Positions 2,642 to 27,382 of a DNA stretch of 43,797 bases are shown in pieces. The DNA is from a virus. How positions within the stretch are numbered: position 1 is the first letter of the stretch; the number at the start of each line of letters is the position of its first letter. Below the pieces are notes generated by a model. It saw only the letters and a program-made list of their open reading frames with translations. It was not told the origin of the DNA and made no database searches. A program made the translations under genes and the position numbers. The stretch is taken from IMG/VR virus record IMGVR_UViG_3300035702_000481, positions 1-43,797 of that record; one strand, given 5' to 3'.

Positions 2642-2755
2642 GCTGAGATAGCTGGAGAACGAGTAATGGAACCAAACTTCAGACTAGCTGTTAAATTAGC
2701 TAAAGAAAGAGGAGTAAGAGTTAAATACTTCCACAAATGGATCAAAAATGAATGA
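2642..2755 (+). pseudogene. 3' fragment of an unidentified gene
   Basis: A clearly coding-like frame (AEIAGERVMEPNFRLAVKLA and a basic C-terminus KYFHKWIKNE) runs into a TGA at 2753-2755, overlapping the start of the HNH-RNA ligase gene. It has no start of its own and begins next to the HNH insertion. It therefore seems to be the C-terminal remnant of a deleted gene. If UGA were read as Trp, only a few codons would be added before TAA. Confidence 0.45.
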
Positions 2756-3782
2756 CACAGATAAGCTTTTAAGTCGTAAGGATTTTAGAAGAGCTGTATT
2801 TCGTAGAGACCACAACAAATGTGTTTTATGTGGGGATTCTGCTAAAGACGCACACCATATCATAGAAAGGCGTCTTTTTCCGGACGGTGGTTATTATCTT
2901 AATAATGGCGCGAGCTTATGCGGGGATTGTCATATCGATGCTGAACAAACGGTAGCTTCTGTAGAAGAAATACGTAGAGCAGCGGGAATAACCAAAAATG
3001 TCATACCACCACATCTATATTCCGATCATAGGTACGACAAGTGGGGCAATCATATATTACCTGACGGGACCAGAACCAAAGGAGAGTTATTCTTTGACGA
3101 GAACGTTCAAAAAATAATACCTCAATACATAAAAGACTTGTTCCGGGATTGGGTAAAATATCCCAGAACATGGCACCTCCCTATATCTAACGCTACAAAA
3201 GATGATCGAACCCATAAAGACTTTAGTCTTTTTGAAGGGCAGGAAATTGTCATAACGGAGAAAATGGATGGAGAAAATGCCACCCTGTACACAGACTATT
3301 TCCACGCAAGAAGTGTCGATGGTAATTCCCATCCATCACAAAGTTGGGTAAAGGGTCTGCAAGCTAAGAAAGGTTACTTGATCCCTAAAAACTGGAGAGT
3401 TTGCGGGGAAAACATGTACGCCGAACATTCCATAAAGTATGAAGATTTGGAATCTTATTTTCTAATGTTTTCTATTTGGAATGAAAAGAATCAATGCTTA
3501 TCTTGGCAAGACACAAAAGTATGGGCAGAATTACTAGGATTTAAACTAGTTCCAGCCTTATACGAAGGAAAGTTCAATAGGAAAATCCTTTTGGACACTA
3601 TTGAGTCTCTAGACACAGAAACTCAAGAAGGGATAGTTTTAAGACTTACCCGACCGTTTGCTTACACTGAATTTACAACATGTGTAGCTAAATGGGTTCG
3701 ACCCAATCATGTAGCCGAAACAAAACACAATTGGCGTATGCGTTGGGATGAGCGAAAAATTAACCTAATCAAAAACAAATAA
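2748..3782 (+). CDS. HNH nuclease - RNA ligase fusion protein
   Basis: This 344-residue protein has two domains. Residues about 10-75 form an HNH nuclease with a zinc site (C25xxC28, HH at 36-37, C58xxC61H62). Residues about 155-344 form an ATP-dependent RNA ligase. Its nucleotidyl-lysine motif KMDGEN has K172, GENMYAEHS follows near 225, then EGIVLR and AKWVR correspond to ligase motifs IV and V. Known RNA ligases of this class seal breaks in RNA through a lysyl-AMP intermediate. A nuclease and ligase in one chain suggests a cut-and-seal or repair role, possibly on tRNA, given the tRNA-rich neighbourhood; that is inference. The linker between the domains looks intact. Confidence 0.8.
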   Translation: MNDTDKLLSRKDFRRAVFRRDHNKCVLCGDSAKDAHHIIERRLFPDGGYYLNNGASLCGDCHIDAEQTVASVEEIRRAAGITKNVIPPHLYSDHRYDKWGNHILPDGTRTKGELFFDENVQKIIPQYIKDLFRDWVKYPRTWHLPISNATKDDRTHKDFSLFEGQEIVITEKMDGENATLYTDYFHARSVDGNSHPSQSWVKGLQAKKGYLIPKNWRVCGENMYAEHSIKYEDLESYFLMFSIWNEKNQCLSWQDTKVWAELLGFKLVPALYEGKFNRKILLDTIESLDTETQEGIVLRLTRPFAYTEFTTCVAKWVRPNHVAETKHNWRMRWDERKINLIKNK

Positions 3783-3795
3783 TACATATTATAAA

Positions 3796-4110
3796 ATGAC
3801 ACCAGAATTAATAATTGGAATCAGCATCGCAGTAGTTTTAGCAGTAGTTATCATAATTTGGGCAGCTAATAGGTCCAGTAAAAACAGTTCCCAAACCTCC
3901 GGGGTCACAGTATCCGGTAGCGAGGATGGAAACAAGCGACCAAAACCAGATCAGTCAGCTACGAAAACTAAACCTGACGAACCAGAGGTACTTACAACAG
4001 ATTTATCAGATCTAAAAGTTCCCGAGCTAAAAGAATTAGCTAAGGAACGAGGCATGACTGGCTATTCTAAGCTAAGAAAAGCCGAGCTTGTAGAAGCTTT
4101 AAAGAACTAA
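3796..4110 (+). CDS. Membrane-anchored protein with SAP-like C-terminus
   Basis: The 104-residue product has one N-terminal membrane helix (IIGISIAVVLAVVIIIWAA), a Ser/Pro/Lys-rich linker of about 45 residues, and a C-terminal helix-turn-helix unit (LKVPELKELAKERG... KLRKAELVEAL). That unit matches the SAP / Rho-N type nucleic-acid-binding motif. The arrangement would hold a small DNA- or RNA-binding head at the inner membrane. The gene is followed directly by a strong terminator. SAP assignment rests on the L-x-E-L-K...G...KAELVEAL pattern; the partner nucleic acid is unknown. Confidence 0.65.
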   Translation: MTPELIIGISIAVVLAVVIIIWAANRSSKNSSQTSGVTVSGSEDGNKRPKPDQSATKTKPDEPEVLTTDLSDLKVPELKELAKERGMTGYSKLRKAELVEALKN

Positions 4111-4175: not shown

Positions 4176-4313
4176 ATGTCACTATCATACGTAAAACCGA
4201 AGAAGCAGAAAAAGCGCTTAGAGACTAGAATTAGTAATTATGAAAAAATGACCTCAGCTTACAAAGGAAGAGGAAACTCCCCCTATACTAAGCCCGGGAG
4301 CATGAATAAGTAA
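4176..4313 (+). CDS. Small basic protein (45 aa)
   Basis: An ATG at 4176 opens a 45-codon frame that ends at TAA 4311-4313, overlapping the ATG of the CYTH gene (TAATG). The product is very basic (KPKKQKKRLETR) with a Pro/Gly-rich end. The tight coupling to the next gene and clean frame support translation. No family is recognisable. A nucleic-acid-binding or structural accessory peptide is possible from charge alone. Confidence 0.55.
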   Translation: MSLSYVKPKKQKKRLETRISNYEKMTSAYKGRGNSPYTKPGSMNK

Positions 4314-4831
4314 TGGCGAGCGAGTTACAAGAAAAAACAATACAAGAGATTGAAAGAAAGTGGGTATTAAAAAGACTCCCACGAGATGTTTTTGAAAGTA
4401 ATGTTGAGGTAATTCACCTTGAATATGCCTATTTAGAAGGCAAGAGATTTACAAAAAGAACTGTAGCAGGGAAAGACTCAGATTATTGGATAACCACTAA
4501 AAAGGGGGAAGGGTTATCCCGAGAAGAGAGTCATAAGGAAAGCCACTTAGAGGAATTCACTAAAGCTAAGAAAGATTTTTACTCTAACTGTCTATCAAAA
4601 ACAAGATACACTATTTTTAGGGACACTTTTGATATCGAGATAGACTACTATCATAACTTTGATCTTGTAACGATGGAAGTAGAGATAGAGGTTGATATTG
4701 ATGCGGACCATGAAAGAGCCGCAGAAAGATTTGCAACAGAGTCAATCCATCTACCAGAATCGGTAAAAAGTGAGATCATATCTGAGGTCACAAATTTGCC
4801 GGGATTTTCCAATAAAAATTTAGCAGAATAA
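4313..4831 (+). CDS. CYTH-domain (triphosphate tunnel) protein
   Basis: The N-terminus contains EIERKW, the ExExK signature that begins the CYTH / triphosphate tunnel fold. Regularly spaced charged beta-strands follow (TKRTVAGKD, WITTKKGEG, KTRYTIFRD, VTMEVEIEVD). Members hydrolyse inorganic triphosphate, thiamine triphosphate or RNA 5'-triphosphates, or make cyclic AMP. Length (172 residues) fits a single-domain member. It is coupled to the small gene upstream and followed two bases later by the deoxyribosyltransferase-like gene, so all three are probably one operon. The real substrate cannot be told from sequence. Confidence 0.75.
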   Translation: MASELQEKTIQEIERKWVLKRLPRDVFESNVEVIHLEYAYLEGKRFTKRTVAGKDSDYWITTKKGEGLSREESHKESHLEEFTKAKKDFYSNCLSKTRYTIFRDTFDIEIDYYHNFDLVTMEVEIEVDIDADHERAAERFATESIHLPESVKSEIISEVTNLPGFSNKNLAE

Positions 4832-5757: not shown

Positions 5758-6275
5758 TGACAGAAAAGCTTAAGAAAGAGTTAGACCTATTTAAAGAAAC
5801 CGAACCTCATAATAAGAAATTTATAGGTTTTGATAGCAAGGGTGATGAGTGGATTTGTTACATAACTCAGACAGGTGATTCCTGGGAAAGAGCTCGAAGA
5901 GGTGTACTAGACACTAAGCCAATAGTGGCCATTGACATGGACCTAGTTTTGTGTGACTTTTATGGCTCTTACTATGCAAGGCAAAAAGAGGACCCGGAAA
6001 TTAAATACCCTCAAAGCGAGTATAAATTTTTCGAAAACTTGAAGCCAATGCCTAGAGCTATTGAGGCTTACCACCGATTAAAAGAGAAGTATAATGTAAA
6101 AATACTTACTGCGCCCAGCGCTAAGAACCCACTGTGTTATACAGAGAAAAGAAACTGGGTAGAAAAGAATCTTGGAATGGATGCTGTTTATCGGTTAACT
6201 ATTACTAAGGATAAACATCTTTTTAAAGCGGACCTTTTGATAAAAGAATTATCTCTTCTTTACCTCTTGCGCTAA
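5757..6275 (+). CDS. HAD-type 5'-nucleotidase-like protein, C-terminus altered
   Basis: Residues about 60-75 hold the HAD nucleophile motif VAIDMDLVLCDFYGS (DxDxV). The cap-domain region that follows (PMPRAIEAYHRLKEKYNVKILTAP) is typical of the NT5C-like family of phage 5'(3')-deoxyribonucleotidases. The family normally ends with a Lys and a DD motif in an LIDD context. Here KADLLIKELSLLYLLR replaces it, so the last catalytic acidic pair seems lost, probably by a small rearrangement near 6235. The enzyme would dephosphorylate nucleotides if active. An N-terminal extension of about 55 residues has no known match. Confidence 0.65.
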   Translation: MTEKLKKELDLFKETEPHNKKFIGFDSKGDEWICYITQTGDSWERARRGVLDTKPIVAIDMDLVLCDFYGSYYARQKEDPEIKYPQSEYKFFENLKPMPRAIEAYHRLKEKYNVKILTAPSAKNPLCYTEKRNWVEKNLGMDAVYRLTITKDKHLFKADLLIKELSLLYLLR

Positions 6276-6290
6276 AACAGGAGAACAAAA

Positions 6291-6602
6291 ATGGATAATT
6301 ATTTAGCATTACAAATAGTAAAAGAATCAGAAGCGTGGGTAAGACACCAACTCAAAAATAAAGAAGAGCGTTGGTTCGTTGGCGAGGAAAGCGAAATAAA
6401 GCAAAGCACGCTCTGGAAGTGGGCTTGGCATTTAGACACAATTAAAGAAAAGATCGAAGAAGGTAAAGAGTTTAAAAGGGAGCCAAATTGGGCCTCTATA
6501 TGGAATTTATACCGATTCGGTGTTTCTAAGTGGCCAATAAGTAGAATTAAGAAAAGAGCTTATGTTAATAGTAAAAAGGAGGATCACCATGAAGTAACGT
6601 AA
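6291..6602 (+). CDS. Hypothetical protein (103 aa)
   Basis: The ATG follows GGAGAACAAAA, a plausible ribosome binding site. The product is rich in Trp, Lys and Glu and mostly helical (ALQIVKESEAWVRHQLKNKE; TLWKWAWHLDTIKEKIEEG). It has no membrane segment or signal peptide. The high tryptophan content, all from TGG codons, contrasts with the UGA-using genes on the other strand. I do not recognise a family. Confidence 0.6.
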   Translation: MDNYLALQIVKESEAWVRHQLKNKEERWFVGEESEIKQSTLWKWAWHLDTIKEKIEEGKEFKREPNWASIWNLYRFGVSKWPISRIKKRAYVNSKKEDHHEVT

Positions 6603-6625
6603 ACGTTAAATAAACATGGAGGTCC

Positions 6626-7066
6626 ATGGGTAAGACATATAAAAAGTTTTATCACTACACAATTAAAAGGTGTAAAACATGTGGCGGGAAGATCAACCAG
6701 AGAGGAGTACACACAAAAGAAAATAATTTCTTGTGTTCTTGCATCCCTAAATCTTTAAAAGGTAACTTCTGGTATAACGATCATCTTGCTATTTGTAGGT
6801 GTAGCATCTGCAAAGAGGAGGCTATTTTCCCTTCTCAATTAAAGTTTAGAGGAAGTTATTACGCTAAACAGCAATCTCACTATGATAGTAGAGAGTTAAT
6901 AAGAAATAGCTTTTCCTACAACACAAGAGTAGAATCATCGATAAGACATGGCATGAAAAAGGGCATGCGACGGAGAGAGAATATGGCCTTAAGAACTTTC
7001 AAAGCTGTTGATCGTCATGATTTTGTTTTTGAATGCTACAAAAAATATAAAAATGGGTGGTGGTAA
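6626..7066 (+). CDS. Zinc-ribbon protein (146 aa)
   Basis: The start has a good Shine-Dalgarno site (GGAGG) six bases upstream, unusual among its neighbours. Two CxxC pairs, CKTCGG near residue 15 and CSICKEE near 63, plus CSC near 38, indicate a zinc-binding fold. The remainder is basic (HGMKKGMRRRENMALR). It is probably a small nucleic-acid-binding protein. It lies just before tRNA-Thr. No specific family was recognised, so the function is open. Confidence 0.6.
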   Translation: MGKTYKKFYHYTIKRCKTCGGKINQRGVHTKENNFLCSCIPKSLKGNFWYNDHLAICRCSICKEEAIFPSQLKFRGSYYAKQQSHYDSRELIRNSFSYNTRVESSIRHGMKKGMRRRENMALRTFKAVDRHDFVFECYKKYKNGWW

Positions 7067-7968: not shown

Positions 7969-8730
7969 ATGAAATACACACTTTATGAGGTAGGGGGCGC
8001 AATCCGAGATCGACTCCTCGGAATAGAAAATCCAAAAGACATTGACTATTCAGTAGTTATAGAGGATAAATAGAACTTTGAAAATCCGGTTGATGCTTTT
8101 AAGGAGCTTTCCCAGAGCCTAAAAAATAAAGGTTACGAGGTATTCCTTGAAACCCCTAGTATGTTTACCATACGGGCCAAATTCCCTAAAGAACATCAAA
8201 TGGCGGGACTTGTTGCAGATTTTGTAATTGCACGAAAAGAAACAGATTACATAAAAGGAACAAGAGAGCCAATAGTGGAATTAGGAAGTTTGAGAGATGA
8301 TCTAGAACGTAGAGACTTTACAGTAAATGCAATGGCCATGGACCTGGAAGGAAATATTATAGATTACTTCGGAGGGCAAGAGGACTTGCAAGCCGGTTTA
8401 ATTAGAACACCTAAAGATACTAACCTGTCTTTTAATGATGACCCGCTAAGAATCCTCAGAGCCATCAGGTTTAAAATAACCAAAAGACTTGAATTTACTG
8501 ACGAGGTAATAGCCGCTATGGGAGTTATTGACGGCTCCAGATTAGGGACGGTCGTATCAACAGAGAGAATAAGGGAAGAACTTTATAAGTGTTTTAAATT
8601 CAATACTTACAAAACATTAGAAGTCTTGTTTTTCTTAAGAGGTATAAACCCGACTTTATATTTTAACATACTGGGCGAGGAGAAAGATAAGCAATCAGCT
8701 CTTTGGTTAGAGCCCACAACAAAATCTTAA
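7969..8730 (+). pseudogene. CCA-adding tRNA nucleotidyltransferase with internal TAG
   Basis: The frame encodes the class II nucleotidyltransferase head: YEVGGAIRDRLLG, then DIDYSVV with the metal-binding DxD, RRDFTVNAMAMDL, DYFGGQEDL, and DDPLRILRAIRF of the neck. An in-frame TAG at 8071-8073 interrupts it after VVIEDK, with coding clearly continuing. The protein also ends early, near 254 codons, soon after the head and neck. The intact enzyme adds CCA to tRNA 3' ends, which fits because the phage tRNA genes lack CCA. The TAG could be a true nonsense mutation or a recoded codon. No CUA-anticodon tRNA is seen in the window. Confidence 0.7.
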
Positions 8731-10574: not shown

Positions 10575-10686
10575 GTATGTTATAGAAGCGAATTTATATA
10601 ACTGTGCAGGGTGGTATGAATGTAATATTCATGAGATGATAAACACTATAACAGACCATTATGAAAAAAGTAATATTTCAGTTTGA
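10570..10686 (+). pseudogene. 3' fragment of an unidentified gene fused to tRNA-Gln
   Basis: Starting at the tRNA break point, an open frame reads LYVIEANLYNCAGWYECNIH and runs to TGA at 10684-10686, overlapping the start of the NADAR gene. It has no start codon. Its composition looks coding, so it appears to be the C-terminal remnant of a gene joined to the tRNA by deletion. Confidence 0.4.
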
Positions 10687-11104
10687 AAACCATAATAGAT
10701 TTTTATCTAATTTTTGGGAATCCGAAATTAACCTCTACGCTCAAACGTTCCCCACTGTTGAGCACTTCTACCAATCACAAAAAGCAGTAAATGAAAAAGA
10801 CTTCCTAAAAATAGCTAACGCAGCTTCTCCAGGACTTGCTAAAAGGCTTGGAGGAAAAGTAAAACTAGTGAAAGATTGGGAAGACAAGAAAGACGCTGTA
10901 ATGAAAATAGGGGTAGAAGCAAAATTTACTCAGAATCCAGAACTAGCCAAACAGTTAATAGAAACAGAAGGCTGGGAGCTTTGGGAAGGTAATTTTTGGG
11001 GAGATACCTATTGGGGAGTCGATCTAAAGACTGGCCAAGGAAAAAACAAGTTAGGAAAAATTTTAATGACAACGAGACAACTTTTGATAGACAACAAACT
11101 TTAA
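10661..11104 (+). CDS. NADAR-family protein
   Basis: The 147-residue product has the whole NADAR (YbiA-like) pattern: FLSNFWES near residue 15, then FPTVEHFYQSQKA, ASPGLAKRLGG, a central AVMKIGVEAKF helix, and the C-terminal WGVDLKTGQGKNKLGKILM. Known members are N-glycosidases acting on ADP-ribose-linked or riboflavin-pathway substrates. Some remove ADP-ribose from guanine in DNA and so counter DarT-type toxins. In a phage this could undo host ADP-ribosylation defence; that role is inferred. Length equals a single stand-alone domain and all recognisable blocks are present. Confidence 0.88.
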   Translation: MKKVIFQFENHNRFLSNFWESEINLYAQTFPTVEHFYQSQKAVNEKDFLKIANAASPGLAKRLGGKVKLVKDWEDKKDAVMKIGVEAKFTQNPELAKQLIETEGWELWEGNFWGDTYWGVDLKTGQGKNKLGKILMTTRQLLIDNKL

Positions 11105-15681: not shown

Positions 15682-16171
15682 ACCTTAAGATTTTTATAGG
15701 GCTTTCATTGTTAACGTCTCTTTGAAGTGTGGGAGTATATCTACCCTCTTTGGTTTTAGACTCTCCCGAGCCTTTTACTGAGCTTCTTTTTTTTACTTCC
15801 GGGGAGTCTTCCATATTTGGTATTACTCCAGCCTCAGACGTTTTCTTGTCTAATTCCTTCTTGTCTATAAAGGTGAACGACCCATTGTCTTCCAAATAAG
15901 CACCCAATCTTTCAGAGACGATGAGTCTATAATAAGGGTGACCCCTCTTTACTTCAGATTCCAGGCTTTCCATTTTTGTGATGCCGCCAGTAGCCGAAAT
16001 CTCTTCCAATACATATACGGTCCAACCCTGTTTATTGTTTGGAACATGAGTAATTATTAAAGCCTCTTCATGGTCTTCAATAGGATTTAGAACACCATTT
16101 AGAACTTCAGCATTAAAAGTATGCTGCCTTCATTCTATCTCGTGTGTTTCTTCATTTACAAATAATGGCAT
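15680..16171 (-). CDS. Hypothetical protein with one in-frame UGA (163 aa)
   Basis: The ATG at 16171 overlaps the stop of the RNA polymerase gene (TAATG). The frame contains one UGA at 16130-16132 (IE-Trp-RQHTF when read as Trp) and then continues to TAA at 15680-15682. Without recoding, only the last 109 codons would have an ATG and the overlap would be lost. The product has a beta-rich N-terminal half (GWTVYVLEEI, YYRLIVSERLG) and a charged, disordered tail. It is probably co-expressed with the polymerase; family unknown. Confidence 0.7.
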
Positions 16172-19100
16172 TAGTAAAAACCTCCTTCATCTTTCCCTTT
16201 CTTTTTAGGATCGCCAAAATCATCCCCATAAATGTATGCGGGGATAGGGTCTTTTCCTGCAATATCCGCCCACTGTCCTTTAGCCATTCCCTTAGAAAGA
16301 CCATCTTTTATTCTGTTGGTAGTAATTCTTGTAAGCCAGTCATTACTATCAACGTTTAAAGTATCAACAGACTTAAAGTAAGGTTTATACTTTATAGGTT
16401 CCATTTTATTTGCCTGACGTTCTCTATTCAATTTCTTAAGATAAGATTCAGTGGTCTTGTCTCCTCTATAAAAACCTGAGTCATCAGGTGCTTCTGTAAT
16501 CTCAGCGTTATCACTAATTCCTCGGACAACTGTTTCTATACTTTTCTTATGAAAGTCATTGTCGTACACTCCAGAAATCTCATCAACAATATATTTTTGA
16601 GCTTCTAAGTGACTTTTTAACTCTCCTAACTCCTGTGGCTTAATAACTCCATCTGTGAGTGCCTCTCCTTTTTTAACATTGTTCCCCTCAGACACTAGTA
16701 ATTCTCTGCCAGGGTGAATTGTAAGTTTTTTAGAACCTACATTTAGCTCCCACCCACCGATATCATTCTTCTTAATACCAGACACAGACCCTGAAATAGG
16801 GGCAAGGGTTGCTTTTCCGCTCACTTTTTGTGGTACTTTTAAAAGCTGTTCTAATCGAGGAAAGGAAGAAGCAACATCTTTCTTACCACCTGCCGCTCCC
16901 CCGGTATGGAAAGTCTTCATAGTAAGCTGAGTAGATCGCTCTGTTAGAGCTTGGGAATCTAAAATACCTACATTCGTTCCTACATTAGGTAGCTGCCCGT
17001 CAGGTAAAGTACCATAACATTTCTGACAAATACCTTCTGAAGAATCACACGTAAGAGGACTTCTAACCTCTAAAGATTCCATGCCTTTTTCTTTAGCATT
17101 ATTAATAACTCTGGAATCAATAATCTCGCCCCTTTTTACTACACCTCTTACAGTGTTAAGAGCAGTCCTATCAAGTACATTATTATCACTCAGCTTCAAG
17201 GTAATTCCTTCAGTTGTTCCACAATCTTCTTCTACGATAAGCTGTCTACGATTAACAGAGAGCAGAGTCTTGTTAAGGGCCCCACTCTGCTGAGTGTTTA
17301 CAGATCTATCTACGATCCCCTTTCTTACACCTGGAAAAGTATTGAAATAAGAAAAAGTATCTAGACCTTCCGAATAAGATTTGAAAATCGGGATAGGGAT
17401 AGGATTACCGTTTGTGTCAGTAACTATACCCGGCCCACTAAGGACCTGCTTAACATTCCCGCTCTTACTTTTAGACAGAGCACCAGTCTCAATAAGCTCA
17501 AGCATACGGTTTTTGCCTTTTAACTGCTTATCTTGCGCCTCCCCTATATCTTTATTAAGAGCTAAATAAGCTTCTATTTTTTTCTGGTCATCTTTTATTT
17601 TCTTTATCTTGGGCTCCCACTTTTTAATTAGGTTTTCCCGGTATTTACGATCTATAACCATGTCATCAATAGAGATGGTTCCCCCTATTTTATAGGAATA
17701 CAACGCTCCCAGGTCTTTATAATGGTTTATGACGTCTGCAAATACATCATTAGGCTCGCTCCTTGCTATCTTGTCTAGTAGTTTTGATAGGTCGCTACCT
17801 TTAAAAACCCTGGAATAATCCTTATACTTCTCAGGAAGTTTTTTATTAAGTTCCCATTGGCCTAATGTCATGTTTTGACCGTTTAAACTAAATTGGTCAG
17901 TCATTTTTAAACCAGCTTCTTTTGCTTCATTTATTGATTTAAAAGTTTTTCCAGTCTTTTTATTTAGCTCGCTGAGCTTTGATATACCGTATACGTACTC
18001 TTGGGAAACAGATGGGACTAATCCTCTATCACCATGTTTGAACAGAATCCTAGAAGGAAACATACTCTTTGCATCTTGCTCACCTTCATAGGTTGCCGGG
18101 ACCATTATAGACATAGTATCCCCGTCAAAGTCAGCGTTGAACCCACTAACAATTAAAGGGTTTATTCTAATATCTTTACCGCTAGAGAGTTGTGCCTTAG
18201 CAGCCTGTACTGAATGTTTGTGTAAAGAGGGAGCCCTATTCATTATGACCGGTTTCTCTTTCATAACTTGTAACAGAGCCTGCTTACCCTGATCATCTCT
18301 CTCATTTACAGATTTAAGAGAATTAGAAGCAGTAATACCTCTTTCTTTTAATTTACGTACAACAAAAGGTTTAAAAATAGTCCAAGCCATCTCTTCTGGG
18401 ATACCTACTTCATCTAAACCTAAGGAGGGTTCTGGAGTAATAGTTGAACGTCCAGAAAGATCCTGGCGCTTGCCCCAAGCTTTTCCGAATATGATTCCAC
18501 CTTTAGTATTACCTAGTTCTTTTAGAGCTCCTTTATACTTCTGCTTACCGTATGTTATAGGATCAACAAAACCTTGCATGGCTTTTACAGAATAGTAAAG
18601 ACCATTTTCATATTTAACCTTCTCCTCATCATCTATAATGTCCTCGTCAATAGCATTCTTTAGACCCACCGCTTTTAACCCGATGTCTCTATAATGTTTA
18701 TTTATATCTGAAACTTGTAAATCTCCAGAAGGTAAAGCGTAGATAGGTCGGAACTTAGGAGGAAGTGTCAAAACATTCTTAATAACATAAGCATCTTTAG
18801 CATTTAATCCTTGTTGATCCAAAGCGTCTAATATCCTAACCTTAGTGTTAAGCTTATTTACATTGGTAGGAGGAGCATCTCTAAGAAGTTCTTTTGTAGA
18901 CTTCAGCTCTTTCTTTATGTCTAGGGATTTTAAAGAACTTATAATACCCGCTGCACCAGTATTACCATTCAATTCTTCTTTACCAGACATAATATTATCA
19001 TAACCTTTGTTAGTAAGCTCTAAAATACTTTTTATGGCACTTTCTGCCATAGGATTCGGAAGCTCCACCGGAAGAGAAATGTGATTATATTTCTCCCCTT

Positions 19101-22100
19101 TGGATCCACCTGTGAGTTTCTTATCAAATAAACCCCCTTTTTTCTCTTCTAGGTTTTTACCTATGAGCATATCTGCGGGCTTAGTTATCTCACCATTGGA
19201 AAGCTCTAAGGTTTTTTTATCAATAAGAGGGATTAATTGCATACCATTGCCTTCTTTCTTTACATCTACTCCGGCAGCCTTTAAGTAATTTAACATTTTG
19301 TCAAAAACAAAATTACCTGAAGGTTTTGGAGGTGCTAAACCAAACTGTACATTTCGGAACCATTCTTCGTTTTTTCTTCCTTTTATAGTGGTAGCCTCAC
19401 GGAGCAAATTCTTAGCACCGTGTGCTAAATAAGAATAAGTCACACCCTCACCCATCTTCTGGGCGCCCTTACCAGCAGGTTGCTCATCGATATCATAAGT
19501 ACCGAAATCATGCGCCCCCATTTTTTTCTTCACAAGATGGCGAAGTTTTAAATACTGTCTATTACCAACAAAAATAGGGTTTTCAATATAATCTCCATTC
19601 TTGCCATCTCTAAGTTTCTCGTTAGGCTCTACACCTTCTTTCTTCATTAGGTCTAACACTCGCTTGGCTTCATCGCCTTCTGGGTTATTAAAGTTCTTAA
19701 TGTCATAAACCTTCCCAGTCTTCTTAGAAAGTTTACCCATAGCTGTATCTAACAACTGTCCCATATTCATACGACCTTGTACACCCTGTGGGTTTACCAT
19801 TATCTCAACAGGCGTACCGTCCGGGCGATGAGGAGCCTCGTCATCTGGTATAATTTTACCAACGATGTGCTTATCTCCATAGCGCGACGAATTACCAGTC
19901 CAACTAGTTTTACCATTTCTTCTAATATAAACTATACCGTTAGGAGTAGTAGGGCATCCTACTTTGCCCTCATAGTGTATATAATCCTCTTCTTGTGCAT
20001 TTTGATCATGTACGTGCCCATGATTAACTTGTGGGTACAATTTTGTTTTTATTTCTCTAATATTCCAACAATCATAGTTAGAAAAATATTCAAAAACCCG
20101 AGTACCGGCTGGAGAAGCTAAAGTATAATTAGCTGCCATACCGTTTTTAAGTATCAATTCCATCAAATCATCTCTCATTTTTAATGAGGATGTTATATAA
20201 ACTTTTTGCCCGCTATTATTTATAGAACCATCCCCTTTACAGTAAGCATCTAAAAAAGCTTCTATATATTCAGAGTCAGACTCTTTTATAGCATCTGGGA
20301 CAAATTTTTGAAAGGATTTGCCGAAAGGCTTTAAATAGTAATAAAAAGACTTGGAATTAAAGGTAATTCTATCTTTTTGCTCAATTGGAGTAAGATTCAT
20401 CCTTTTTAGTAAATTAACTATCTCTTTATAGTTAATAGGATTTATTTCTAAACTCTGATGGATTGTAGTTACATACCCTTTTGGAGTTTTGTTAGTATTT
20501 CCCTCAGATAAAAACCATCCCATAAATGAAGCAAAATCTAAAGCATCAATTTCATGTTGTATTTCAGAGGGTATTACAAGATCCTCCCCAAACCATTTAC
20601 CACTTTTAGAATACCTGACTCGCTTACCAAATATATCTTTAGGATTAAATAAACCGTATCCACTATTTAAAGGGTTACGAGGCTTAACATACATTTTATG
20701 GCCTAGAGTAACAAGTTGATCTATAGTAGTATTTGCTATCTTATACATAGGACCCTCATGGTCATATATATTAATACTTTGGGCCTCTTGGTACTCTATT
20801 AATTCTCCATTTGGATTTAGGGTACAGAATTTTTCAGAACCCTTTAACTCTAAAATAGATTTCCACCCTTTATCAGTTAGAAATTCCGTTTCTTCATCTA
20901 CGCATAGTTTATCTCCTCCTTTGAAAGGGTGAACACTTTTAACATAGATGTCAATGTTTCTTCCAGTTTTTCTAACCTCAACAACTTCCCCTACATCTTC
21001 CTCATCCCAGACGGTTACGTTCTTAGAGTAAGGAGTGTAAATAGCTTTATTTAACTTTTTTAAAGAAGCATCTAAGTCATCTACTTCTTTTTTAACCAAA
21101 AAGGCTGCTAAAGTTTCTCCTTTTTGAAATTTCTCACCAGGCTTAGGTAGTCCCTGTTCATCTAATTTATCTGAATTACTTGGAGGGAGCTCCTCAGGGA
21201 ATAAGGCTCTGAATCTTTTTTTGTCAAACACAGATAGCTTCGGTGTAAAGAACACATTGATCCTATCTATAGAGGAGTGAGAAAGTTTTTTGGCAGCACT
21301 TTCAGTTATAGTAGCACCATCTTCAAAAGAATTACCTTTGTACGAAATGTAAGCCACTGTCAGGTTTTTACCTAAAGCAAGTCTTCCTTTATCATCTGTA
21401 AAATTACTTTTAGCTAATAAGTCTTTTGGTTTAACTTTGTCGCCTTCTTTTACAATAGGGGAGGTGTTTAAAAAACCGTCTTGGTTAAGAGGGAAATCTT
21501 TATAAAGACCTACTTTATAATCTTCGCCATCATCACCTTTTATATGAATATATTCATCTGTTATTTTATCTACAGTACCACCAACATTATCTTTTCCACT
21601 CTCTTTTGAAAGAGTAGGTAATAAAATAGTTCCCATAAAATCTTCATAGGTACTTTCTCCGTCTCGGTTGACAGTAGTCAGAGGGGCTTCCGGATTATCC
21701 AGAGGCAAGGCCTGTGTAATCATTCGTCCGGCAGTAGAGGCCCGGTTACCTTGAGTAGTGGATAAAAAAGGAACTAGGTTAGCACCAAAGTCAAACATGC
21801 TTTGAGGAGATCTTAGATAAAAATCAACCTCACTAGGTTTAACTTCGGCAGGCTTGTGATTTTTCATAGCCTTAACCTTTTTGAAAAGAGCTTTAGGCTT
21901 CCCATTCTTCATAGTAAATTGATCTGGAAACCCAACAGTAGAGTTATAAAAATCCATAGGGCTCTTGTCTTCAATTTTACCGTCTGGCATAACCACCGGA
22001 GTGACCATTTCATTACCTTTCTTATGAACTTCACTACCTAGACCCACAGATACCCCTACTTTCAGAGATTCTGGTGTCGAAAGGGGATCTAAAAACCCAA

Positions 22101-23265
22101 AATGGGATGGCTGAACATCACGAGTCTCCATAGTAATAGAGTGCATGTTTCGAATACCACCCTCTCCCATAGATGTAGTTTTACGTGCGTTAGTAAGCAT
22201 AGCCACAGGGTTTGTTTGTGGCGGTGTAGAGGATAGATCACTTGTAGTAAAAAAGTTTCTCAAAGGTTTTGTAAAAACGTTTGAAGCAACTACTTCTCCA
22301 ACCTGGTCTCTATTTCTTAAAGAGTTTTGTAGCTTTCTTTGTATAGTCTTACCATGCGCATTAAAATATTCTTTTAAAAGGTCATCTGGTGCGTAAATAT
22401 TTTTGAAAATAAGAGAGTCTCTCTCATCAGGCTTTTCTGTCCCCTTGTTAATATTAAGAAGCCTAATTGAGGCATCGATAAGAGCCTCTGGAGAAACGAC
22501 TTTATGCCCGGATCCTAAAGTGATTTTATTTACCTCTGGGTTCATTGCCGTCTCTTCAAAATATTTTCTAAGCCCGGCGCTTACTTTAGAAAGAGTCTGA
22601 GGTACATTATTCTTGTCAATTAACTTTTTATATAAATCAACAATCTCACTCTGCTCTGTTCGCTCAAAACCACTTTTATTTGTTTCAAAAAGATTTTCTC
22701 CTCAAGCATTTTTCATTTTTGAGTCCATCATACCCAAATGGCTAAGCAGAGTATACAAACGGTATTTACGAGTTCCACTTCTCAAAATTAAATAAAATAT
22801 TTGCTTCTGTGGGTCTAGCTCCAAAGAAAAGTTTGCACCCTTCTCTAAGTTAAACTCACTCTCTAACTGCCCATTCTTTTTCTTACGAGAATAAACACCA
22901 CTCTTCCTTCTTATCTGGTTAAAAACTTGATATTCATTTCCCCCTACAATTGCGCTAAATCTATTGGTGAGCTTTGGTATAGCGCCAATTTTGGCATTAG
23001 TTTTACTAGATATAGTTCTTCCAGAGCTGGAATCTACTATAGCTAAATCAGCCTTAATAGGGACTTCTCAGCTACCTCTATTTAGCCTAGTTTCTTTCTG
23101 GCCTGGGAAATCTGTTTCTCCCAAGGTATCTTCAATTTGTAAATTGGATAATATTAACTTTTTTCCATCTTGTTCTACAGGAAACATGTTCGTTATGGAA
23201 TCTTGCAGAGATTTTTGTATCTGCTGATTTTGTACTTTGTGGTCTAAGAAATTTGTATCTGACAT
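16171..23265 (-). CDS. Fused beta-beta' DNA-directed RNA polymerase, intein-containing, two in-frame UGA
   Basis: The frame from ATG 23265 to TAA 16171-16173 encodes about 2364 residues if UGA at 23068-23070 and 22702-22704 is read as Trp (RGS-Trp-EVPIKADL and KNA-Trp-GENLFE). The first part is beta-like: it ends in the GDK...SSRYGDKHIVGKI and RMNMGQ blocks. The second is beta'-like: KGGIIFGKAWGKRQDLSGRS, MNRAPSLHKHS, the catalytic NADFDGDTM that holds the Mg-binding Asps, a zinc site with CDSSEGICQKCYG, and the trigger-loop block QLTMKTFHTGG. A 338-residue intein interrupts the GDK motif. The polymerase probably transcribes later phage genes. A sigma70-like promoter lies upstream. The UGA codons near the 5' end make synthesis depend on the suppressor tRNA. 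Confidence 0.93.
19891..20904 (-). mobile_element. Intein with LAGLIDADG endonuclease in RNA polymerase
   Basis: The insertion of 338 residues begins with Cys after GGDKL (CVDEETEFLTDKGW, a typical block A) and ends with Asn (TSWTGN) followed by Ser of the extein. Endonuclease-like blocks FMGWFLSEGN and FLDAYCKGDGS are LAGLIDADG motifs. Near the end, HDQNAQEEDY and GIVYIRRNGKTSW form the C-terminal splicing region. Removal restores GDKL-SSRYGDKH, the conserved basic motif of the beta subunit. The usual penultimate His is replaced by Gly, which may alter Asn cyclisation. Inteins favour such invariant sites because deletion must be exact. Confidence 0.9.
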
Positions 23266-23709: not shown

Positions 23710-24885
23710 ATGACAAAAACTCTTACAGGGCAAAGCGAAGCCCAAAAAATGAGAGACATAGAAAACGAGTTAAATTTATTTCACGTAGAACGCACCGAAG
23801 AAATACGCGGTCTTAGTTTAGCTATAATAGCTAACACTAATGTTCTATTACTAGGTGATCCCGGAGTAGGTAAAAGTCTGCTCATAAAAGATTTTTCAAA
23901 AAGAATTGTTGAATCAGACTATTTTGAATGGTTGGTTGGTAAATTTACCACACCTGACGAACTTTTTGGTACATACTCTTTAACTAGTTTACAGGAGGGC
24001 AAGTTTGAGAGACATACCGAGGGAATGCTGAGCGAGGCTCACGTTGTATTTTTAGATGAAATTTGGAAATGTAACAATGGGGTTATTAACTCTTTGTTAT
24101 CTGTAATGAATGAGCGGGTATTTCATAATCACGGTAAACAAATCAAAGTACCTACCATTTTATTAGCCGGTGCTTCTAATGAACTTCCGGAAGCTAATGA
24201 TCATTTAGATGCCGCATTGGACAGATTTATTTTAAAGTTTAAAGTAGATACGATTCAAGAAGACGCGAATCTTGTAAAGATGATGCAAAACTCTTTAGAG
24301 GGAACTCGTGTAAAAGAAGCATCTATAACTTTGGACGAGGTTCACACCCTACAAAAGCTGCGAAGTGAGGTAACAGTTCCTTTAAGTGTTTTAAAAGCAT
24401 TTGTTAAAATCAAAAATGCTTTACGATCTGAAGGACTAGAAATTTCACCTAGAATGGCTAATCAAAGCATGAAAATAGTACAAGCGAATGCTTTACTAGA
24501 GGGTAGAAAAGAAGCAGAGATAGACGATTTGGAAACCCTAGTAAACGTCTTATGGAGAAATGATGACGATATTCCTTTAATAAGTGCAAAGGTTTATGCT
24601 AACATATCTTCAGAGGCTGAGAAAATTATCGAAGAGTTTTCTAAAGCCACGAACGTTATGGACAAATACAAGAAAGCTTTTAATGAGCACGGTACCTCAG
24701 AGGGTAATTATGTGCACTTCATTCAAGACTTAGTAGATGTCCGTGACAGGTTAGACGAGATAAAAGACGGAATAGTTTCAGACGGTAAAAGTACAAAAAC
24801 AATAGACAAAAAGATAAATACTATTGACGGCTGGGTCAAACGCATTTTTAGCGAAGGACACGGCATCCATGATATGCAAGTTTAA
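23710..24885 (+). CDS. MoxR-family AAA+ ATPase
   Basis: This 391-residue protein has Walker A GDPGVGKS (49-56), Walker B VVFLDEIWK near 114, a sensor-1 segment LLAGASNELPEAND, and the arginine-finger region LDRFILKF. That is the typical order of MoxR/RavA/CobS-like AAA+ ATPases. The C-terminal 100 residues are helical and differ from the core. MoxR ATPases usually work with a VWA protein encoded next to them as chaperone-like complexes on a target. That pairing holds here, with the VWA gene 38 bases downstream. No UGA is used inside the gene. Confidence 0.88.
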   Translation: MTKTLTGQSEAQKMRDIENELNLFHVERTEEIRGLSLAIIANTNVLLLGDPGVGKSLLIKDFSKRIVESDYFEWLVGKFTTPDELFGTYSLTSLQEGKFERHTEGMLSEAHVVFLDEIWKCNNGVINSLLSVMNERVFHNHGKQIKVPTILLAGASNELPEANDHLDAALDRFILKFKVDTIQEDANLVKMMQNSLEGTRVKEASITLDEVHTLQKLRSEVTVPLSVLKAFVKIKNALRSEGLEISPRMANQSMKIVQANALLEGRKEAEIDDLETLVNVLWRNDDDIPLISAKVYANISSEAEKIIEEFSKATNVMDKYKKAFNEHGTSEGNYVHFIQDLVDVRDRLDEIKDGIVSDGKSTKTIDKKINTIDGWVKRIFSEGHGIHDMQV

Positions 24886-24895
24886 TCTATAATAT

Positions 24896-24914
24896 GGGGC
24901 CCTTAAGGAGCCCC
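24896..24914 (+). promoter_or_regulatory. Intercistronic hairpin between MoxR and VWA genes
   Basis: GGGGC and GCCCC pair around CCTTAAGGA, which is mostly palindromic itself, just before the VWA start. Only short T stretches follow, so partial termination or mRNA processing is more likely than full termination. An upstream in-frame ATG lies within this hairpin (24894). Confidence 0.45.
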
Positions 24915-24923
24915 TTTAAATTT

Positions 24924-26417
24924 ATGAAATATTTAGGAAAGAACAACACCTCCCTATCAGAGGAGTTAGAGCTGTACGAGAATTGTTTTCATACAACTAC
25001 TATAGATAAAGAAAATTTCGATAAAACATTATTTAAAAAAAGCTCGCGATTAAAGAAAATTGTCCAAAAATATAAGGATAAATACCCGCCGGTGAGGGAT
25101 TTAATCTGCGATGTTTATACAGCCCTATACCGGCATTATCCCCAGCTTGTAAAACCACAGTTAATGAAATCATCTCATCAGCTGAATTACAGAGTTTTAG
25201 AGGCTTTTACAAAATCTTCACGTTTCAAAGAAATAAGAAACTTCTCCAGAAATGATAAGATAGCATCCATAACAGGTACTGAGGTTTTTATTGAGGACCT
25301 TTTAAAGGATCTGGACGACATCATTACAGAATACAACCAAATTATGCAAGCTATGGAATCTGTAATTGAGGAGGCCTCTAAAAAACTAGGGCCTGGGAAA
25401 GAACATACCCTGGACGAGGTAAAAGATGCTATGGAGAAAGCAAAAGACAAAATAGATCAGCTTTTCAAAGATAAGGTTAGATCAAAACTAATTAGGTCAC
25501 TAAATGTTTTGGCTGGACAGCAGCGGGAGCTTGGAGATAATATCAAGAACTGGGGATTGGGAAATGACGGTTCTTACCAGAAAATGCCCTATGAAGAAAA
25601 GCTAGGTCTAATAAACAAGATCAGCAAAAATCCTAAGCTTAGAGAAATATCTTTATTAGCTGGCCGATTAAAAGAGATCTATCTAAAGGGAGAGAGGGAA
25701 AACTCCCGTAAAGCCAAAGAAACATTAAGAGATGTAACAATAGGTAATGATCTCCCCAGAGTGCTTCCCTCAGAATTAGTAGGGTTTAACCACAGTACGT
25801 ATCGTCAAGTATTTTTAAAGAAATACTCCGAGAGAAGGTTAATGCAACACAATTACGGGACTAAGTCTAAAAAAGGGATGGGACCCATCTTAGTTTTAAT
25901 GGACTCCTCAGGAAGTATGCAGGGAGAAAATGAAATCTTTACGAAAGCGGTTGCCCTAAGTCTTTTAGAAATATCAAGGAGGCAGAAGAGAGCCTTTCTA
26001 GGGATACATTTCTCTGACGCCTCGCATCCATCAGAATTAGTGACACATTACTTTAGCCCTAAGAAGCCTTTTAAGGTAGAACAGGTTATAGAAATGGCTG
26101 AATACTTTGAAAGTGCGGGAACAAATTTTGAAGTACCATTAAAACGGTCTCGAATAGAGATCGACAAGGAACCTGAATTTTTTAAAGCAGATGTAATAAT
26201 GCTAACTGACGGATGTTCCGGGGTTACTGATGCTTTCTTAAAAAGTTTTTTAAGTTGGAGAGATGAGAATAATGTCAAGGTAACGTCTATTTTAATGGAT
26301 AGAGGGTACGGAACTACTAAATCCCTAGAGCAGTTTTCTAATGAGGTAGTCCATCTCAAAGACATAAGTAATGAAAAATTTGAAGCGGCAAAAACCATAT
26401 TTAAAAATATTTTTTAA
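24924..26417 (+). CDS. VWA-domain protein (MoxR partner, CobT/CoxE-like)
   Basis: The ATG at 24924, after the hairpin, gives 497 residues. The N-terminal 290 residues are helical and charged. The C-terminal domain is von Willebrand factor A: the MIDAS motif is VLMDSSGSMQGE with D327, later FESAGTNFEVPL supplies the conserved Thr, and IMLTDGCSGV the last acidic site. VWA proteins bind partners through a metal and are actuated by the adjacent MoxR ATPase. Similar phage pairs are often labelled cobaltochelatase-like CobS/CobT, although cobalamin synthesis is unlikely. The reverse transcriptase starts nine bases downstream, making a three-gene operon. Confidence 0.85.
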   Translation: MKYLGKNNTSLSEELELYENCFHTTTIDKENFDKTLFKKSSRLKKIVQKYKDKYPPVRDLICDVYTALYRHYPQLVKPQLMKSSHQLNYRVLEAFTKSSRFKEIRNFSRNDKIASITGTEVFIEDLLKDLDDIITEYNQIMQAMESVIEEASKKLGPGKEHTLDEVKDAMEKAKDKIDQLFKDKVRSKLIRSLNVLAGQQRELGDNIKNWGLGNDGSYQKMPYEEKLGLINKISKNPKLREISLLAGRLKEIYLKGERENSRKAKETLRDVTIGNDLPRVLPSELVGFNHSTYRQVFLKKYSERRLMQHNYGTKSKKGMGPILVLMDSSGSMQGENEIFTKAVALSLLEISRRQKRAFLGIHFSDASHPSELVTHYFSPKKPFKVEQVIEMAEYFESAGTNFEVPLKRSRIEIDKEPEFFKADVIMLTDGCSGVTDAFLKSFLSWRDENNVKVTSILMDRGYGTTKSLEQFSNEVVHLKDISNEKFEAAKTIFKNIF

Positions 26418-26425
26418 GAGGGTAA

Positions 26426-27328
26426 ATGAATAATATTAAAAAACTATTAGGTCAGGAGAACCTAAAAGAAATAAAGAATCCAATTGAAGCTAATTATTAC
26501 ACGTTTGGGATAAAAAAGAAGAGCGGTAAAATACGCAAAATAACAGCCCCCAGTGACAAGTTAAAAGCAGCACAGAACATCATTCTACATTCCATTTTAT
26601 ATAAAGGGAGACCACACGCATCTGCAACCGGCTTTATACCGGGATACGGAATAGAGGATGGTGCTAGACAGCATGTAGGTCAAAAGGCTCTATTAAATAT
26701 AGACCTTAAGAACTTTTTTCCTTCTGTAGAAAAGGATGAGGTTATTGAAGTTTTCAGAGAAGCAACTGAGAGGGCTAAGAAACATATAAGTTTAACGACC
26801 CTCAGTGAGCAGGAATTAGATTACCTAGCGGAGCTTTGCTGCTATAAAGGAGGGCTACCACAAGGAGCACCAACTTCCCCGGTAATATCTAATTTAGCTT
26901 GTTTCGATCTTGATAGAGAGTTGTATGGTTATTCTTTAGATAATAAACTAACATACACAAGATACGCAGACGATATGACTTTTTCACACGCAACGGGAGA
27001 CATTGACCTTGCTCATATTTTGGCAGACGTTACAAAAATTATAGAAGATTTTGGACTCGTCATAAACAGAAAAAAAACCAGATTCCAACGAGCAAATAAA
27101 CAAATGTCTGTTACGGGTATTGTTGTAAATGACAGGACCAATGTTTCAAAGGTTAAAAGAAGAAAGTTCAGGGCAAAACTTCACAACCTTTTAGAATCTG
27201 GTGAAAAGATAGACCCAGATGAAAAACAAAAGCTTAGAGGATATGCTAATTGGATTGATCAGGTCAATCCTCAACAGGGCAAGTTCTTTATTGAACAAGT
27301 GAAAAAAATTCCGGTGAATCCGGTATAA
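26426..27328 (+). CDS. Retron-type reverse transcriptase
   Basis: The 300-residue protein has the reverse-transcriptase blocks in order: KKSGKIRKITAPSDKLK, HASATGFIPG, LLNIDLKNFFPSV with the first catalytic Asp, GGLPQGAPTSPVISNL, YADD at 180-183, and GLVINRKKT. After these comes SVTGIVVND, the VTG motif (V229) characteristic of retron enzymes, while GARQH near residue 85 resembles the retron NAxxH motif with Gly for Asn. It has no maturase or integrase domain, so it is not a group II intron. The GAPTSP sequence argues against diversity-generating enzymes. The usual msr-msd RNA is not directly upstream, since the VWA gene is there. The RNA at 23399-23567 is a candidate template. Confidence 0.88.
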   Translation: MNNIKKLLGQENLKEIKNPIEANYYTFGIKKKSGKIRKITAPSDKLKAAQNIILHSILYKGRPHASATGFIPGYGIEDGARQHVGQKALLNIDLKNFFPSVEKDEVIEVFREATERAKKHISLTTLSEQELDYLAELCCYKGGLPQGAPTSPVISNLACFDLDRELYGYSLDNKLTYTRYADDMTFSHATGDIDLAHILADVTKIIEDFGLVINRKKTRFQRANKQMSVTGIVVNDRTNVSKVKRRKFRAKLHNLLESGEKIDPDEKQKLRGYANWIDQVNPQQGKFFIEQVKKIPVNPV

Positions 27329-27382
27329 GATAAATGGAGCGTAAAGCTCTTAATTTTTAACTTTTAAATTAGTTTCTGGTTT

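Follow-up and report, generated by a model that had tools for sequence, protein, structure and literature searches.

The HNH-ligase gene and its surroundings

The window, by which we mean the whole stretch of DNA analysed, is a 43,797-base virus record (IMGVR_UViG_3300035702_000481) in which one plus-strand open reading frame joins an HNH domain to an RNA ligase domain. This gene, its parts and two of its neighbours are located as follows.

1273-2037, + strand: calcineurin-like metallophosphoesterase (Pfam PF00149, E 1.2e-8), a neighbouring gene
2748-3782, + strand: HNH-RNA ligase fusion gene, ATG start, open reading frame of 344 aa (PHROG 24030, E 1.3e-127, residues 6-332)
2772-2945, + strand, residues 9-66: HNH domain (Pfam PF01844, E 5e-4; conservation; nearest solved folds are HNH nucleases)
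2985-3119, + strand, residues 80-124: 'DKWGN' extension, conserved and folding with the HNH domain in the AlphaFold2 model; K98 codon at 3039-3041
3144-3728, + strand, residues 133-327: Rnl2-type nucleotidyltransferase (ligase) domain (PF09414; structural match to T4 Rnl2); K172 codon at 3261-3263
4313-4831, + strand: weak CYTH-like open reading frame (PHROG 6660, function not annotated, 7.9e-19), a neighbouring gene

The match to PHROG 24030 ('RNA ligase') is full-length, running to profile positions 2-333 of 342 with the HNH N-terminal and the ligase C-terminal, so the HNH half already lies inside that profile. The Pfam HNH match (20.6 bits, residues 25-62) narrowly missed the curated cut-off of 21.4, the N-terminus is also hit by several HNH families of PHROG (best 3.6e-10), and the catalytic and zinc set is complete (C25, C28, H36, H37, N53, C58, C61 and H62). 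The ligase half matches Pfam RNA_ligase PF09414 (E 1.2e-32, residues 166-317) and carries the motifs KMDGEN (K172), EGIVLR (E294) and AKWVR (K315). The first-pass annotation had read this gene as an HNH nuclease and an RNA ligase in one chain with both sites complete, and the profile matches, together with the conservation across 98 sequences described below, confirm that reading.

Upstream, a short open frame runs to 2755, and its end overlaps the ATG of the fused gene. On the minus strand, 2264-2683 holds a zinc-finger/HNH-like open reading frame, recognized by eye, which overlaps that short plus-strand fragment (2603-2755) before the ligase gene; the region 2264-2755 had no Pfam match at E 0.001 and resembles the remains of a gene next to a mobile HNH. 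The open reading frame at 4313-4831 had no Pfam CYTH match, and its PDB matches were 3typ (E 0.15) and 2fbl (E 0.24), both presumably CYTH proteins. Further along, a CCA-adding enzyme gene (7969-8730, +) is interrupted by one in-frame TAG near 8071-8073, which may reflect error, decay or readthrough; the tRNAs detected in the window include none with a CTA anticodon. A NADAR domain protein (2.3e-27) is encoded at 10661-11104 (+), and a 2,124-aa open reading frame at 16171-22545 (-) combines beta and beta-prime RNA polymerase domains with an intein-like insertion seen by eye. At 23710-28351 a MoxR ATPase gene (bpMoxR, 3.4e-51) is followed by a large open reading frame that looks vWA-like by eye, then by a reverse transcriptase whose matches are RVT_1 (4.3e-28) and, as the best of the PADLOC retron-type models, RT_XIII (3.9e-83), and lastly by a LAGLIDADG open reading frame; a phage retron-type reverse transcriptase beside MoxR merits separate attention.

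Predicted fold of the HNH-DKWGN module

Modelled alone with AlphaFold2 from 74 sequences, residues 1-135 gave a high-confidence structure (pLDDT 96.0, pTM 0.88; the full-length model reached pLDDT 84.3 and pTM 0.71), which indicates that the DKWGN stretch folds together with the HNH domain as one module. This predicted single fold is new here. The solved structures nearest to the module are HNH domains, those of IscB (Z 6.3, rmsd 3.1, 77 aligned), Cap5 (Z 5.8, rmsd 2.5, 75 aligned), EcoKMcrA (Z 5.7, rmsd 2.9, 76 aligned) and GVE2 (Z 5.6, rmsd 2.4, 66 aligned), all of which we take to be DNA nucleases; with Z-scores below 8, the likeness of fold is general only. The PADLOC profile PtuB also matches the module (1.5e-5). 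In the phage collection, residues 80-148 matched nothing beyond the fusion family at an E below 0.8. We make no claim that the DKWGN extension is a new fold: the VIA-align rows barely reach past residue 105.

The ligase half and its relationship to DRB0100

The best structural match to the ligase half of the model was T4 Rnl2 (2hvq; Z 11.8, rmsd 3.1, 170 aligned, 21% identity), and a Naegleria RNA ligase matched similarly (Z 11.6, rmsd 3.4, 167 aligned). The domain is also homologous to DRB0100 of Deinococcus radiodurans (45% identity over residues 136-327), with K172 aligned to K40 of that protein; the link between the window ligase and DRB0100, drawn from alignment, is new here. The D. radiodurans ligase was identified as DRB0100 from gene order and its place on MP1, with gene numbers from PMC1997131 and PMC11833690. 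According to Blasius et al. (2007, PMC1997131), DRB0100 self-adenylates and loses this activity in K40A, did not ligate nicked DNA, nicked DNA-RNA hybrids, single-stranded RNA or double-stranded DNA in vitro, and was suggested to need a partner that recruits it. As DRB0100 sealed neither RNA nor DNA, the ligase activity of the sub-family is unproven, though expected of this branch.

Distribution and conservation of the fusion

The fusion architecture is already in print. In Iyer et al. (2021, PMC7824862, section 21), Rnl2 ligases with an N-terminally fused HNH domain are described from jumbo phages, the function given there being a suggestion, and the GenBank record of HGTV-1 (gp233) is already annotated with an 'HNH endonuclease domain'. 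Literature searches, which took in few subscription journals and not Burroughs and Aravind 2016, returned nothing more on the HNH-Rnl2 fusion and none of the findings called new here, and passages of PMC9503650 and PMC10272220 held nothing bearing on it.

Domain searches, proposed as a check in the first-pass annotation, recovered the same fusion in phages, viral contigs, plasmids and genome contigs. Matches to the window protein were found in 33 records of the phage collection, and in 16 of these the match spans 80% or more of the query. The 16 are Salicola SCTP-2, two records each of Acinetobacter ME3 and HGTV-1, two uncultured ones and nine from Caulobacter phages, whose organism is given as Caulobacter or Bertelyvirus. 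All 80 listed of 292 viral relatives align from residue 8 or earlier to residue 319 or later, and the plasmid search gave 59 matching records, the fusion being present in 12. With a published description and relatives that are near full-length throughout that list, the fusion can no longer be called unusual, as it had been. A single, fully alignable architecture is common to the distant phages SCTP-2, CcrBL9, ME3 and HGTV-1. The viral sample is the best 80 of 292 relatives and a second relative listing the best 80 of 346, so only best-ranked relatives are represented and distant members are under-sampled. Related genomes were also sampled in sets of 398, 399 and 397, and in each set a match spanning both HNH and ligase occurred in the centre genome only.

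Both active sites are strongly conserved. Across 98 distinct fused sequences, window included, C25, C28, H37, N53 and C58 are present in all 98, H36 in 97, and H62, K172, D174 and K315 in 96 each, a near-invariance that makes the HNH site more than a chance resemblance. Since H36, H37, N53 and H62 are also present in 72 of 73 loci picked by a ligase search pattern, the conservation is not an artefact of searching with an HNH motif. The mean majority frequency in the 98 sequences is higher in the HNH region (0.733) than in the ligase (0.644).

Natural mutants of nuclease and ligase

The state of the HNH catalytic residues (HHNH) was assessed in 111 fused copies, comprising the earlier distinct set, 12 plasmid copies and two further phage sequences. 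Two loci were kept out of the count of dead and intact copies: LR745206 (L249), where the HNH domain is a separate gene, and viral contig L083, whose gene (5995-7000) is interrupted by an in-frame stop in each half, HNH and ligase, amid conserved residues, consistent with recoding or decay. L020 and L021, which consist of the HNH only and whose open frame stops shortly past residue 93, were not counted, and L164 was scored as HNH-intact despite its broken ligase motifs.

Among uninterrupted viral copies, drawn from the best-ranked relatives, 81 were intact and none dead. Genome contigs contributed 17 intact copies and one dead, and plasmids six of each; catalytic residues were thus lost in 7 of 30 plasmid or genome-contig copies, and all seven sit on plasmids. 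The seven plasmids (0.39-1.17 Mb) are those of Pseudomonas Leaf58 and FeN3W, pMPPla107, P. silesiensis pPL1, P. serbica unnamed1 (the genome-contig copy), Croceicoccus marinus plas1 and that of Natronococcus CG52. Catalytic degeneration of the HNH domain in relatives, which the first-pass annotation had named as evidence against its reading, therefore occurs in some plasmid copies but not in the phages sampled.

Loss of catalytic residues leaves other parts of the protein in place. C25, C28 and C58 are kept in 7 of 7 dead copies and W99, G100, R109 and G112 in at least six of seven, a pattern that suggests retention of the fold without catalysis. K98 behaves differently, being lysine in 104 of 104 intact copies versus 1 of 7 dead ones, and is likely part of the nuclease; R10, R41, Y49 and R140, the last just N-terminal to the ligase, show a similar dead/intact pattern. 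Of 24 ligase columns conserved in at least 95% of intact copies, 22 are unchanged in at least six of the seven HNH-dead copies. Identity to the viral consensus in dead copies is 0.63 for the module (four catalytic columns excluded) and 0.80 for the ligase, compared with 0.92 and 0.91 in viral copies and 0.84 and 0.83 in intact plasmid copies.

On the ligase tree, the dead state takes at least four changes, two of them forced by well-supported branches; the dead Natronococcus copy is sister to the intact copy of virus HGTV-1 (support 100). Dead and intact copies are related through this tree and are therefore not independent, so that p-values computed as if they were exaggerate the difference. 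The converse mutant is L164, from a Bacteroidota MAG, in which the HNH is kept and the ligase motifs are broken. At least ten copies in isolate chromosomes or plasmids have an intact HNH, so carrying the nuclease need not harm a resident replicon. Together these patterns provide evidence, new here, that the predicted nuclease is strictly constrained in phages, dispensable for the ligase and inactivated more than once on plasmids.

Split and ligase-only forms

In two relatives HNH and ligase have genes of their own that overlap, an arrangement that is new here. In LR745206 the ligase (1995-2639 of L249) overlaps an HNH open reading frame (2632-2949; best profile PHROG 24030, 1.2e-11), the order being reversed relative to the fusion. 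The other relative is Variovorax SRS16 (L178), whose stand-alone HNH module has an open frame from 3965 that overlaps the ligase gene; its public annotation begins at 4085, so that the first zinc cysteines are missing from it. In SRS16 an RNA ligase (PF09414, 1.9e-29), an HNH-DKWGN module with HHNH intact (PHROG 24030 positions 3-125, 1.7e-38) and a protein with HD and AAA_33 domains lie in a row; this ligase is distant, and tblastn with the window protein reported just the module in that record.

The ligase tree, built by a quick method with SH-aLRT support only, covers 81 rows, a subset of viral and ligase-only sequences. In it, the ligase-only gene of XacN1 groups with a fused copy (L003; SH-aLRT 97) and the LR745206 ligase with another (L248; SH-aLRT 97). 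Because the tree was midpoint-rooted for drawing, it does not tell loss of the HNH from its original absence in ligase-only copies. The split-gene neighbours and the tree groupings together indicate that the two halves are functionally linked and physically separable.

Gene neighbourhoods of fused and ligase-only genes

Ligase-only loci have a recognizable RNA-repair setting. An HD-Pnk-like gene lies within 6 kb in 59 of 63 such loci (62 genome contigs and the viral contig L019), as scored with a profile seeded by 40 proteins encoded directly behind the ligase in those same 63 loci; among the 23 loci that gave no seed, 19 had a match. RtcB was found in 17 of the 63, an RF-1-type family, which we read as PrfH-like, also in 17, and RlaP in 6. 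The same profile had no match in any of the 80 listed fused viral loci, one match in 18 fused genome loci (L164) and one in 12 plasmid loci (FeN3W, HNH-dead). Mutual exclusion of HNH and HD-Pnk is not claimed from these counts: the seeds came from the loci that were scored, phage and bacterial layouts differ, and at L006, a viral locus with the fusion, the adjacent gene is a PNK-phosphatase left unscored by the profile. Among phages, a kinase-type neighbour was found in 2 of 9 ligase-only loci versus 0 of 80 fused loci (p 0.009; one profile, one threshold); the two kinases are open frames of 183 and 317 aa assigned as polynucleotide kinase by PHROG, and one of them comes from L019, which is also among the 63.

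RNA-repair families were also surveyed across 34 whole fusion records (30 viral contigs and 4 phages; E<=0.001). A second PF09414 match was present in 24, though the weak ones may represent DNA ligases. RlaP was present in 22 (19 of them above the cut-off), AAA_33 in 25 (23 above) and CCA/poly(A) polymerase in 25. Few of these lie close to the fused gene: by coordinates, RlaP is within 6 kb in one of those records, AAA_33 in one and CCA in two. The commonest recognized single family beside the fused gene was ATP-dependent DNA ligase, at just 9 of 98 loci.

For tRNA genes, 20 of the 34 records were compared with control stretches of the same genomes, two per record, placed away from the gene. 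tRNA-bearing stretches numbered 7 of 20 fused loci and 8 of 40 controls (p 0.22); 29 of 80 fused loci against the same controls gave p 0.093. The number of tRNAs was 82 in the 20 fused loci and 47 in the 40 controls, which cover about twice the length, and a few clusters drive this difference. In two Variovorax replicons an intact fused gene is flanked on both sides by tRNA genes of one same-strand array, which counts 25 tRNAs in JS1663 (L107, 4118-8173) and 23 on RA8 plasmid 3 (L174, from 18249 to a last tRNA starting at 22105). An association with tRNA arrays was nevertheless rejected, the two Variovorax sequences being sisters and the locus-level control giving the p of 0.22 above. On three plasmids (L180, L181 and L176), genes for peptidyl- or aminoacyl-tRNA hydrolase lie roughly 1 to 14 kb from the fused gene, a phage-like translation-rescue set. 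A defence role in bacterial chromosomes was likewise set aside, as seven loci inspected by eye (L093, L094, L101, L107, L108, L109 and L164) had no consistent defence neighbours.

The first-pass annotation had seen an RNA-repair ligase family within an RNA end-processing gene cluster. The family's repair setting is upheld by the ligase-only loci; the cluster is not, given the HD-Pnk and tRNA counts at fused loci and the rarity of CCA, RlaP and kinase genes near them. The phosphoesterase, CYTH-like open reading frame and tRNAs of the window are therefore not evidence of a conserved cluster.

A probable repair ligase with a separable nuclease

The reading we prefer, at roughly even confidence, is that of an RNA-repair ligase carrying an active, separable and probably DNA-directed nuclease that is kept by phages. 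The C-terminal half would be a minimal ligase of the Rnl2/DRB0100 type: K172 would accept AMP from ATP, and breaks with 3'-OH and 5'-phosphate ends would be sealed in RNA, most probably in tRNAs that have been cleaved. Residues 1-135, the HNH with DKWGN, would be a catalytically intact, metal-dependent nuclease, its target most likely DNA of the host, a rival phage or a plasmid; it would travel with the ligase, presumably in the same phage counter-defence programme, and the ligase would not depend on it. At the level of sequence comparison, the two predicted active sites, their conservation, their coupling by fusion or adjacency and their separability are established; that the ligase acts on RNA, that the nuclease acts on DNA and that both serve counter-defence is inferred. 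The modest HNH Z-scores, the failure of DRB0100 to seal and the intact copies on resident replicons count against this reading. So do the SRS16 row and the kinase-type neighbours of ligase-only phage loci, both taken up below, and the low share of loci (9 of 98) at which even the commonest neighbouring family, a DNA ligase, occurs.

An alternative that we consider unlikely is that the HNH domain trims damaged RNA ends to 3'-OH and 5'-phosphate and the ligase joins them, the nuclease replacing separate end-healing enzymes. HNH enzymes leave 3'-OH and 5'-phosphate ends, which is what an Rnl2 ligase needs, and in SRS16, where the split module sits between a ligase and an HD-AAA_33 kinase, the HNH could act on RNA. 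The paucity of HD-Pnk-like and kinase-type neighbours at fused viral loci compared with ligase-only loci points the same way, but this contrast is weakened by the two short frames, the double-counted L019 and the unscored kinase of L006. AAA_33 is moreover present in most fusion records (25 of 34, E 0.001), and the nearest folds to the module are those of presumed DNA nucleases. The ligase persists with its HNH dead, in 7 of 111 copies, or absent, as in XacN1, and can therefore do without cutting; an obligate form of the excision plus sealing suggested in the first-pass annotation is not supported. Constraint in phages, dispensability, inactivation on plasmids and the coupling of K98 to catalysis jointly favour a separable weapon plus repair over obligate cutting and sealing.

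It is also improbable that the HNH-DKWGN module mainly holds nucleic acid for a minimal ligase devoid of an accessory domain, with cleavage secondary. The small size of the bacterial sister ligases, the partner proposed for DRB0100 (PMC1997131) and the retention of zinc cysteines, W99, G100, R109 and G112 in dead copies would all suit such a platform. The intact HHNH of all 81 uninterrupted viral copies and the invariant K98 of intact copies are more than binding requires, however, and the dead modules have diverged beyond their ligases, which argues against a strong leftover role. Very doubtful is a homing or otherwise selfish HNH attached to the ligase gene and guarding its own inheritance: free-standing HNH-like open reading frames occur beside the window gene (2264-2683, by eye) and near relatives' genes, but one alignable architecture in SCTP-2, CcrBL9, ME3 and HGTV-1 and the adjacent split genes in two relatives amount to a lasting single pairing that is unexpected of a passenger. 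Most remote of all is that the HNH nicks foreign or host DNA, exposing a 5'-phosphate to which the ligase joins an RNA 3'-OH, making the cut unrepairable or a primer; if true, the enzyme would cap with RNA the very cuts it makes.

The natural mutants (dead nuclease with intact ligase, the converse L164 and the split copies) offer a direct test of whether the nuclease serves RNA repair or is a separate weapon. Phage RNA ligases help to decide the success of host defences that cut tRNA.

Comparison with known systems

T4 RNA ligase 2 (2hvq, 1s68) has its nucleotidyltransferase motifs in common with the window ligase. It is not known to have an HNH domain and carries an extra, RNA-binding C-terminal domain after the nucleotidyltransferase domain. 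That C-terminal domain is not evident in the window protein, which stops 17 residues after residue 327 and whose VIA-align rows against T4 Rnl2 mostly cover the nucleotidyltransferase part. The HNH domains of IscB, EcoKMcrA and Cap5 (Z 5.4-6.3) and, by profile, PtuB have the same zinc-type HNH fold or residues as the module, but the HNH domains of IscB, McrA, Cap5 and PtuB have other partners, and their structure-aligned ranges mostly end before the end of DKWGN. DRB0100 and its bacterial sisters ('RNA ligase family protein') are mostly about 210 aa long and lack the HNH module, and the D. radiodurans gene stands in a row of ligase, TIGR02452 and AAA ATPase genes. The closest counterparts are the jumbo-phage HNH-Rnl2 ligases (PMC7824862, whose section on the fusion reports no experiment; PHROG 24030; HGTV-1 gp233). 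No architectural difference was found between them and the window protein; domain order, profile family and phage setting are all the same, and the window protein is an ordinary member of this published fusion family.
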